Of a stretch of 42,248 nt of DNA, positions 846-37,025 are shown in pieces. The first letter of the stretch is position 1, and each line of letters opens with the position of its first letter. The position numbers were made by a program, and so were the translations under genes. Below the pieces are notes generated by a model that searched no databases, was not told the origin of the DNA, and saw nothing but the letters and a program-made list of their open reading frames with translations. The stretch comes from Ignavibacteria bacterium (GTDB lineage: Bacteria > Bacteroidota > Ignavibacteria > Tepidaquicellales > Tepidaquicellaceae), in the NCBI GenBank assembly GCA_016929695.1, contig JAFGII010000009.1, forward strand, positions 1 through 42,248, given 5' to 3'.

Positions 846-1421
846 TTAAAAAAACTTAAAAAATAATCCAAAATCGTAATTTGAATCCGCATTAAAATTG
901 CGTGTGTACTGAATTCCGAAAATTCCTCCTATGAAATATAATCCCGCTTCTATTCCGAAATGTGAGTTATCAGTATCTGCTTTTGAATTTCTTAATGTAT
1001 ATCTTCCGCCAAGAGAAAAAGCAAGATCTTCTCCCCTTTCCACCAGGGGCAGTATCAATCTTGAACCTATATTTAATCCGAATTTATTTAAATCCGAATA
1101 CTGAAAACTGCCTGTTGCAACTTCCGGCTGAACAAATATTTCCGCAGACCCTGCAAATCTCCTCACGGGACTGATTTTGAAAAACTGCACAGGCGAAACA
1201 TATTCATTCGAGGAAAAAGATATGTTGACAGGAGTTATCTGCCACCTTAATCCGAATCTCAGTCTTGAATCGCTCTCGTTATGGTCATCAAAAAATACAG
1301 GAGACGGAATCATCTGCAGCAATGTCCAGCTGATGTATTCCCCGGATTTGTTTTCAATGTGCTCCTGCGGGAAAACCTTCATATTAAACAGCAGTATCAA
1401 TATTATTATCAGTTTTTTCAT
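846..1421 (-). CDS. Hypothetical exported protein, probable outer-membrane beta-barrel
   Basis: I do not recognise this 191-residue protein. It begins with a typical signal peptide (MKKLIIILILLFNMKVFPQ). The rest is made of alternating hydrophobic and polar stretches rich in Gly, Phe, Tyr and Asn, for example FGIEAGLYFIGGIFGIQY, and it ends in FFKFF. A terminal Phe after amphipathic beta strands is the usual signature of an outer-membrane beta-barrel, and about eight to ten short strands would fit the length. It lies 3 bp upstream of the MBL-fold lipoprotein on the same strand, so they probably form an operon. Localisation is inferred from composition and no enzymatic motif is visible. Confidence 0.6.
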   Translation of the reverse strand: MKKLIIILILLFNMKVFPQEHIENKSGEYISWTLLQMIPSPVFFDDHNESDSRLRFGLRWQITPVNISFSSNEYVSPVQFFKISPVRRFAGSAEIFVQPEVATGSFQYSDLNKFGLNIGSRLILPLVERGEDLAFSLGGRYTLRNSKADTDNSHFGIEAGLYFIGGIFGIQYTRNFNADSNYDFGLFFKFF

Positions 1422-1543
1422 ATAAGTCTAAACGGTTTTTTTACACTTTAAGTTTCTTTTATTTCCCTCAGGAACAGAACGGAAAAGAAATTTTGAACCT
1501 CATCCGACAAATAATTGTTTATACAAGTAAATAATCCACAATT

Positions 1544-2422
1544 ATGACAAAAATATTAATATTAACATTTTTTTTCTATGCAATTACGCTGATGAATATC
1601 TCTTTTTCGCAGGAAGTCTCTGCGTATAAAATATTCGATAAGGACGGCAATGAAACGGATTATCCGGCAATGGTTTCTTCGGTATTAAAAAATCAGGTTG
1701 TACTGTTTGGAGAACTCCACAATAATCCGATTTCTCATTTTTTTCAGATTAAACTGACAAAGGATTTTTATGACGCTTCAGGAAAAAGTTTAATCCTCGC
1801 AGCCGAAATGTTTGAAGCCGATGACCAGATAATACTCGATGAATACATCAACGGAAAAATTTCGGAAAGAAATTTCAAAACGGAAGCAAAATTGTGGAAT
1901 AATTATGCTACCGATTATAAACCGCTTGTAGAATTCGCAAAATCAAACGGATTAAAATTCATTGCTTCAAATATTCCGAGAAGATATGCTTCTATGGTTT
2001 ACGCTAAAGGGCTTTCCGCACTCGACAGTCTTGAATCGCAGGCATACGAATGGATTGTTCCTCTGCCTGTCAGTATTGACCTTACCTTAAAATCATACTC
2101 ATCATTAAAAGAAGGAATGGAAGGACATAAAAATAATTTTCTCCCCGAGTCGCAGGCAATGAAAGATGCAACGATGTCTCATTTTATCCTTAAAAATATT
2201 AATGAAAATTCAAAAATAATTCATTATAACGGTGCTTACCATTCCGATTATTTTGAAGGTATTTACTGGTTTCTTAAAAGAGATAAACCTGAACTGAAAA
2301 TTCTTACCATTACGTCGGTTGAACAGAACGATGTTAATAAAATTGAAGACGGAAATCTGAATAAAGCGGATTTCATTATAGTGATTGATGCAGATATGAC
2401 GAAAACTTATGAATCTAAATAA
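1544..2422 (+). CDS. ChaN-family exported protein
   Basis: This 292-residue protein belongs to the ChaN family, whose Campylobacter member is a haem-binding lipoprotein. Residues 1-22 form a signal peptide (ending NISFSQ). No lipobox Cys is present, so it is probably soluble in the periplasm or held in another way, unlike classical ChaN. The family hallmark GELHNN follows at residues 56-61, then AAEMFEADDQ near 86-95 and the late HYNGAYHSDYF block around 227-237. The His and Glu of these motifs are the expected ligand or active-site residues in this Tiki-like superfamily. The gene stands alone on the plus strand and converges on rmuC, with an 8-bp overlap of the 3' ends. The family call is firm; a haem-related role here is an extrapolation. 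Confidence 0.8.
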   Translation: MTKILILTFFFYAITLMNISFSQEVSAYKIFDKDGNETDYPAMVSSVLKNQVVLFGELHNNPISHFFQIKLTKDFYDASGKSLILAAEMFEADDQIILDEYINGKISERNFKTEAKLWNNYATDYKPLVEFAKSNGLKFIASNIPRRYASMVYAKGLSALDSLESQAYEWIVPLPVSIDLTLKSYSSLKEGMEGHKNNFLPESQAMKDATMSHFILKNINENSKIIHYNGAYHSDYFEGIYWFLKRDKPELKILTITSVEQNDVNKIEDGNLNKADFIIVIDADMTKTYESK

Positions 2423-34776: not shown

Positions 34777-35661
34777 TTAATCAGATTTATTTTCATTTTT
34801 GTTATTTGGTGTTTCTTTTTTAGTTTCAGTGTCAGGGGTGCTATCTGGTGTTGTTTCCTGCTTCGTTTCGTCAGATTTAGGGGCAGTGGTATCAGAATCG
34901 GGCTTCGACGCGGCGGTATCGTTTTGTTCCGAGAGTCCCCTCACAGGTTCGGGAGACTCTCCGGAACGGGATGGTTCGGGAGTCACTCCGGAACGGGGTG
35001 GTTCGGGAGACTCTTCGGAACGGGATGGTTCGGGAGACTCTTCGGAACGGGATGGTTCGGGAGACTCTCCGGAACGGGGTGGTTCGGGAGACGTTGCGGA
35101 ACCGGCAGGGGCAGTTGCAGCAGCGGCGGTTTTTTCCGCTTCTTCTTTTTTCCGAGTTTGTTCTTCCTGATAGTCGGCGAGTTTTTTTCGTTTTTCTTCC
35201 GCCATATCGGGGGACATATCAGTAAATTCGTAAACCAGATACTCTCTTTTAAACTCCGAATATTCGAACACCTCCGTCATATATATACAGTCAGTCGGAC
35301 AGGGAAAGACGCACAACTGGCAGAAGCAGCATTTAGCGAAGTCAATAGTAAATTTAGGGACAAAGAGTGCTTTTTTCTTACCCTGCGAAGTCTGCCCTGT
35401 TTTACCCACCACATCACCGGGAACTGCTTTAATAGTTTCAATTTCAATACAACTGACGGGGCAGGCTTTAGCGCACTGGTCACAACCGATACAATCATCC
35501 ATATTAACAAACAATCTATTTCTTTCCCGTTCAGGCAACTGAAGTCTTTGTTCAGGATACTGGATTGTAACACTTTTTTTAAACATACTTTTAAAAGTAA
35601 TCATCATACCAATCCAGATTGTCGTTAATGCTTTATATATATGTTTAAAATAATCTTTCAT
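34777..35661 (-). CDS. nuoI: NADH-quinone oxidoreductase (complex I) subunit I with long low-complexity tail
   Basis: NuoI carries the two 4Fe-4S clusters (N6a/N6b) that pass electrons towards NuoB. Counting from the ATG at 35661 (294 residues), the cluster motifs are CIGCDQCAKACP (C57, C60, C63, C67) and CCFCQLCVFPCP (C111, C114, C117, C121). Each motif is complete. The usual fold ends near residue 165. After it come a charged helix (EEQTRKKEEAEK), an Ala-rich linker, six nine-residue repeats of the type SPEPxRSxE (191-244), and an Asp/Thr/Lys/Pro tail. This makes the protein over 100 residues longer than the compact family members. The tail should be disordered and exposed to the cytoplasm; its role is unknown. 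A TTG one codon before the ATG is an alternative start. Confidence 0.95.
   Translation of the reverse strand: MKDYFKHIYKALTTIWIGMMITFKSMFKKSVTIQYPEQRLQLPERERNRLFVNMDDCIGCDQCAKACPVSCIEIETIKAVPGDVVGKTGQTSQGKKKALFVPKFTIDFAKCCFCQLCVFPCPTDCIYMTEVFEYSEFKREYLVYEFTDMSPDMAEEKRKKLADYQEEQTRKKEEAEKTAAAATAPAGSATSPEPPRSGESPEPSRSEESPEPSRSEESPEPPRSGVTPEPSRSGESPEPVRGLSEQNDTAASKPDSDTTAPKSDETKQETTPDSTPDTETKKETPNNKNENKSD
34946..35107. repeat. Six 27-bp tandem repeats inside nuoI
   Basis: Units begin at 34946, 34973, 35000, 35027, 35054 and 35081. Each begins GGTTCGGGAG on the plus strand and most continue with ACTCT[CT]CGGAACGGG. Units three and four are identical and the last is the most diverged. Read as nuoI on the minus strand they encode nine-residue steps. 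The array is in frame, so gain or loss of units would change tail length without breaking the gene. Confidence 0.95.
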
Positions 35662-35678
35662 CAAAAGGATATTAAATT

Positions 35679-36731: not shown

Positions 36732-37025
36732 TCAATTAAGAATTATAATTCAATTAAAAATTAGTCCATTATTATTTAAATTCTGCTCAAAATGGCAATA
36801 ATTTTGTTTACTACGCCGGAGTGCAGCAAACAGAAATGCTTCCGGTTTGACCGGGTTATGAATTAAGAATACTATTAGTTTGTAAATCGTTTTCCATTCC
36901 TTCTTAAGTCTCAATTTATTCCAGTTAAAAATTCAACAAAAATAATTTAATAAAATCGCTTATCAAATATACGAGTTTGTAAAGTTCGAAAAATCATTCA
37001 TCCAACCAATCATTCAATTATCCAT
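36732..37025. other. 294-bp gap between nuoD and nuoH
   Basis: In many clusters nuoE, nuoF and nuoG lie here; none is present, not even as a recognisable remnant. On the minus strand a 54-codon frame opens with TTG at 36914 and stops at 36750; it has no ATG and no recognised similarity. A hairpin can be drawn around CCGGA...TCCGG near 36818-36847, without a T run. Confidence 0.6.

Follow-up and report, generated by a model that had tools for sequence, protein, structure and literature searches.

A dispersed hairpin inside nuoI

A REP-like hairpin probably entered the 3' end of nuoI after this species split from its sequenced congeners, and its right arm would then have grown by slippage into a coding tandem array whose product is tolerated. 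One end of the array carries a complete copy of the hairpin, each repeat unit joins the hairpin's right arm to a 6-nt linker, and further copies of the hairpin are scattered over the genome.

The gene lies at 34777..35664 on the minus strand of the window (the whole stretch of DNA analysed, 42,248 nucleotides), as an ORF of 295 codons predicted to encode a ferredoxin-like subunit of complex I whose C-terminal tail is long and of low complexity. Its assignment to NuoI combines the ORF list with profile matches: the NCBIfam NuoI models NF004537 (E 3e-31) and TIGR01971 (E 1.6e-30) both match, in each case below the curated cut-off, Pfam Fer4 matches as well, and two 4Fe-4S motifs are present. The protein is 72% identical to the NuoI of a congener, and the closest NuoI sequences among named records come from Ignavibacteria metagenome-assembled genomes. 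Since the product scores under the cut-offs of the NCBIfam models shown, automatic annotation may leave it unnamed. Other genes of the cluster, such as those we take to be nuoH and nuoJ, were recognised from their ORFs rather than assigned from a database.

Six tandem 27-bp units, each a hairpin right arm with its 6-nt linker, occupy 34946..35107 (plus strand) and run in frame within the nuoI ORF, as the initial annotation had described. Tandem Repeats Finder reports 34946-35092 with period 27, 5.4 copies, 92% matches and a score of 252, by far the strongest tandem array of the window, and laying the units out in register places their starts at 34946, 34973, 35000, 35027, 35054 and 35081. A 22-nt core has six matches in the window with up to three mismatches, against 0 expected from 100 dinucleotide shuffles. 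Units 1 to 5 differ from one another by 0-4 bases and unit 6 is diverged, with 6-7 differences from the others. Units 3 and 4 are indeed identical, and slippage or homogenisation, proposed in the initial annotation as the cause, is a plausible one.

That annotation did not include the element next to the array. At 34926..34967 (plus strand, with NuoI read from the opposite strand) lies a complete, imperfect palindrome of 42 nt, whose right arm is repeated to form the array. The element has a left arm GTTCCGAGAGTCCCC, a loop whose length varies among copies and a right arm GGGAGACTCTCCGGAAC; in nuoI the left arm is at 34926-34940, adjoining the array, and the right arm ends at 34967 after the loop. 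The right arm, at 21 nt, is itself nearly self-complementary, and the 6-nt linker brings it to the 27 bp of the unit. The repeat-derived insert as a whole would span 34926..35102, with edges drawn from the element ends, giving 177 nt or the length of 59 codons; its G+C content is 63%, against 35% for the window. All frames of the 27-bp unit are free of stop codons, as are five of the six frames of the 42-nt element, so in-frame insertions of either would be survivable. The nuoI frame stays open across the insert and for 48 more residues.

In the course of events that we propose, a dispersed REP-like hairpin would have inserted into the low-complexity 3' end of nuoI, and replication slippage at the hairpin would then have duplicated the right arm in steps of 27 bp, of which only the frame-keeping ones would have survived. 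The steps themselves are weak evidence of selection, because any slippage of a 27-bp unit yields them. The resulting Pro/Ser/Glu/Arg peptide may be tolerated, with no selected function, because the tail in which it sits, past the iron-sulfur core, is unconserved and probably disordered.

The NuoI tail in relatives

After the second cluster motif, NuoI has a tail of 172 residues here, compared with 79-95 residues in 13 same-family orthologues (L007-L019). All 13 have a low-complexity tail without the array, and both same-genus proteins have tails of 82 residues with no array. A long tail thus appears to be normal in the lineage, contrary to the initial description of it as unusual, whereas the repeat appears to be an insertion specific to this genome; the comparison of NuoI sequences suggested in that annotation gives a long tail in 13 of 13 parsed family orthologues and the repeat in none of them. 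We infer the insertion from the tails of other species, which are not alignable residue by residue in this region.

From 105 NuoI loci, 86 were parsed and 19 were not, yielding 73 distinct complete tails with lengths between 50 and 172 residues. One of the 73, that of the window itself, has the hairpin pattern. Strong arrays (Tandem Repeats Finder score of at least 150) occur in four: the window, L022 (15 bp x 6.8), L134 (18 bp x 6.3, 97%) and L165 (15 bp x 8.3, 100%). The last three resemble the window in being in-frame arrays in the same tail, and differ from it in having no hairpin of this pattern. With unrelated arrays in 3 of the 72 other tails, these sequences show a NuoI tail that apparently tolerates repeats, and the idea that the tail is simply tolerated, raised in the initial annotation, is accordingly plausible. 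Because the spacing between nuoI and nuoJ is only 1-14 nt at all nine loci checked, the insert would have grown inside the gene and not through loss of a stop codon and read-through. The AlphaFold model (seven sequences) has a mean pLDDT of 44 and leaves the iron-sulfur core itself unresolved, and so it is uninformative on the tail.

Alternatively, selection might maintain the peptide array for a function, such as the docking of an electron donor or of a further subunit. An ORF that is open through the insert and 48 residues beyond, and the generality of long NuoI tails in the lineage, would fit such a role, but the array is absent from both congeners, its source is a dispersed repeat, and changes among the units mostly alter the protein (five of the six variable codon positions are amino-acid changing). 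We therefore regard a selected function as unlikely, and the more specific proposal of contact with a missing electron-input partner finds no support in an insert that derives from a dispersed hairpin and varies in this way.

Copies of the hairpin in the genome

The 21-nt core is found beyond nuoI on contigs C48, C119, C15, C26, C61 and C120 (reversed control 0), and the 13-nt left arm TTCCGAGAGTCCC occurs without mismatch at 10 sites across 2.78 Mb, again with a reversed control of 0. Nine copies are full, each scoring at least 54 bits with a covariance model, R1, that was built from the same copies it then recovers; the nuoI copy scores 67.9 bits. Two further copies are cut by contig ends. 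The full 27-mer, by comparison, has no other match with up to three mismatches in the rest of the genome.

Because the repeat breaks the assembly (the genome is in 124 contigs, with several hairpin copies at contig ends), collapse or expansion of a short repeat might have produced an artefactual number of units in nuoI. The array, however, is interior to a 42-kb contig, has substitutions that distinguish its units and is flanked by open frame on either side, which makes such an artefact quite improbable.

The copy closest to that of nuoI, on contig C119, is identical at 40 of 42 positions (95%; blastn E 1.7e-11 to 3e-12). At this site (L041:3589-3756), which is outside any credible gene, four right arms come after the same hairpin; their linker differs and they are spaced in steps of 33 and 28 bp. 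Right arms repeated in tandem on their own are also present at L089 and L088, in other genera, with one extra copy each, compared with four extra copies on C119 and five in nuoI. Such right-arm-only tandems occur in 4 of 37 element instances, whereas left-arm-only tandems within 20 bp occur in none, and the reversed control is 0. That the array arose by ordinary slippage of nuoI's own low-complexity tail, with a coincidental likeness to intergenic hairpins, is extremely unlikely: the tails of L022, L134 and L165 do hold in-frame arrays independent of the hairpin, but nuoI contains the 42-nt element with both arms, matching another genomic copy at 95% (at the E-values given above), and that element includes a left arm (34926-34940) beyond the 27-bp array, which refutes this explanation.

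Eight of the nine full copies are outside credible genes and apparently intergenic, with ORFs of 101 and 108 amino acids that cover two of the full copies counted as spurious; nuoI is the exception. In four of these eight cases a neighbouring ORF has its 3' end no more than 80 bp away. Long stop-to-stop frames run over hairpin copies at L085 (348), L198 (128) and L201 (121). L085 was considered as a second coding copy and rejected, since the hairpin sits at the very 5' end of the ORF, ahead of a probable later start codon, and is judged to be upstream of the true start. Among the copies examined nuoI has the one credible intragenic copy, and repeated in-frame insertion into unrelated genes was not encountered.

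Five copies, including the two that are cut by contig ends, are embedded in a larger composite repeat. A composite intergenic repeat is also present in the window at 36752..36875 (no strand assigned), upstream of what is presumably nuoH; it has a different centre without the hairpin, and in related copies elsewhere in the genome the hairpin forms the central module. The composites (window 36752-36875, L042, L043, L044, L046 and L047) have common outer modules and interchangeable central hairpins.

Stem conservation and distribution across genomes

Across 31 sequences from several genera, 8 of 15 stem pairs are changed on both sides, and the outer stems differ yet stay paired. The covariation score of these sequences is 0.342, against 0.144 when shuffled and at most 0.081 when slid, in an alignment (A4) fitted to the structure of model R1 and a sequence set from which L060, L092, L080, L074, L075 and L105 were left out as duplicates or weaker matches, a choice that favours clean pairs. 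Among this genome's own copies covariation is not significant, with 108 of 500 shuffles reaching the score, and the compensatory support for the stem thus comes from other genera and not from these copies. Taken across genera, the sequences point to a real hairpin whose stem appears to be kept by compensatory change. The reverse direction of spread, in which a coding array in nuoI seeded the intergenic hairpins, is hardly credible, for although nuoI has more arms than any other site found in this genome, related hairpins with compensatory changes are present in genera whose nuoI has no array.

At least 8 of 29 genomes of the family, including that of the window, have a hairpin match at E 0.01 or better; 150 candidates were scored per genome, and the counts are lower bounds. 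Neither same-genus genome has a match among its 150 scored candidates. The core pattern matches 38 of 119 genomes in the class. Within the order (15 genomes) it has 134 matches compared with 10 for the reversed pattern, whereas the other 104 genomes of the class have 39 compared with 22, so the hairpin family is mainly a feature of the order. One genome, G005, has 47 core matches, many of them locally clustered (for example on contigs C46 and C50). Rfam gave no match at E-values up to 1, either for the hairpin or for the nuoI region.

Of 34 copies from other genera of the family, 28-29 have an AC dinucleotide at a fixed place 3' of the hairpin, as do 20 of 24 in the sister family; these are copies in fetched loci and not a full census. 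The AC is often followed by A or G, which reads (C/T)GT in reverse complement. It is absent in the 10 copies of G005 and G016, and the G005 copies that were read have a GGGAG-like sequence 3' of the hairpin instead.

Transposases

No transposase is tied to the hairpin. Y1 transposases are encoded in 11 of 13 genomes, and a related hairpin was found in 2 of the 20 Y1-transposase loci searched, both of them in genome G006; two of the 20 loci, L101 and L117, are around the same gene. A link to RAYT or Y1 enzymes through G006 was rejected, as both G006 enzymes score as IS200-type.

The one clear RAYT of this genome, a REP-associated tyrosine transposase (NF047646, REP_Tyr_transpos, 95.9 bits), is encoded at locus L114 (G000:C94:8800-12000, ORF 1347-1826, minus strand). 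It is flanked by inverted GTAGGACAGTCTTCCAGACTGTC repeats that are different from the hairpin and have 22 sites in the genome (up to three mismatches) and none in the window. The GTAGGACAGTC repeats flanking this RAYT gene are GTAG-tagged and represent a separate repeat of this genome. The hairpin itself has no match in locus L114.

Comparison with known repeat systems

Among the papers listed by literature searches for such repeats in Ignavibacteria, no title or abstract concerns the hairpin. Intragenic palindromes as such are established already: published accounts describe intragenic REPs and Rickettsia palindromic elements (RPE), including groups that encode 43-82 residues, reported for Thauera and R. 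conorii (PMC3733652). RPE are described as in-frame fusions in many Rickettsia genes (PMC10969869, PMC3733652). By these descriptions they resemble the present hairpin in being short palindromic repeats that occur between and inside genes and, when inside, alter the protein in frame (PMC10969869, PMC3733652). RPE belong, however, to another phylum and are ~150 bp in length (PMC10969869), compared with 42 nt here. The present hairpin, set against RPE by description only, also differs in having one credible intragenic case and in its arm-only tandem growth.

REPs of the GTAG and CGTC superfamilies are described as hairpins of 20-40 bp that are mostly intergenic or near gene 3' ends, with some in ORFs (PMC3733652). 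The hairpin shares with them, as they are portrayed there, its form, its mostly intergenic location, its proximity to gene 3' ends and an occurrence inside an ORF (PMC3733652). It also has the character of a REP-like dispersed hairpin, with many places in one genome, mostly intergenic. However, it has a low copy number, no GTAG tag directly at the stem and no clear CGTC tag there; the flanks of this genome's own copies share no GTAG at the hairpin ends, and the RAYT gene that flanks GTAG REPs has no hairpin beside it at L114. CGTC-type REPs, for which the same source knows no transposase, are characterised by a terminal CGTC, TGTC or CCTC, an 8-9 bp stem starting from A-T pairs and a loop of 4-5 nt (PMC3733652), whereas the present hairpin has a stem of ~15 pairs with a conserved bulged A and a variable loop; as to a terminal tag, its copies show the 3' AC noted above in some genomes and not in others.

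Tentatively, the hairpin might represent a third, undescribed REP superfamily of Ignavibacteria, possibly defined by the core GAGTCC...GGAGACTC, the conserved bulged A, an unpaired 3' AC(A/G) tag and right-arm-only tandem growth. The nuoI array would then be an instance of this growth inside a gene, lengthening a core respiratory subunit stepwise. The case links a coding minisatellite clearly to a dispersed hairpin, since the seed element, its genomic sisters and the amplified arm are all visible. This suggests that some coding tandem repeats originate when REP-like hairpins grow arm by arm. Ignavibacteria join the lineages in which palindromes lie within genes, and nuoI offers a modest new instance of stray repeat DNA taken up into a protein without the gene being broken.

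PARCELs offer a further parallel, being coding repeats in tandem with dyad symmetry at the DNA level (PMC2996958). As described, they encode an amphipathic motif of 25 residues in many ORFs and membrane proteins, unlike the hydrophilic 9-residue unit found here in a respiratory subunit (PMC2996958). The nuoI array appears to work like RPE and intragenic REPs, without the GTAG end and flanking RAYT gene of the GTAG class or the short stem and loop of the CGTC class.
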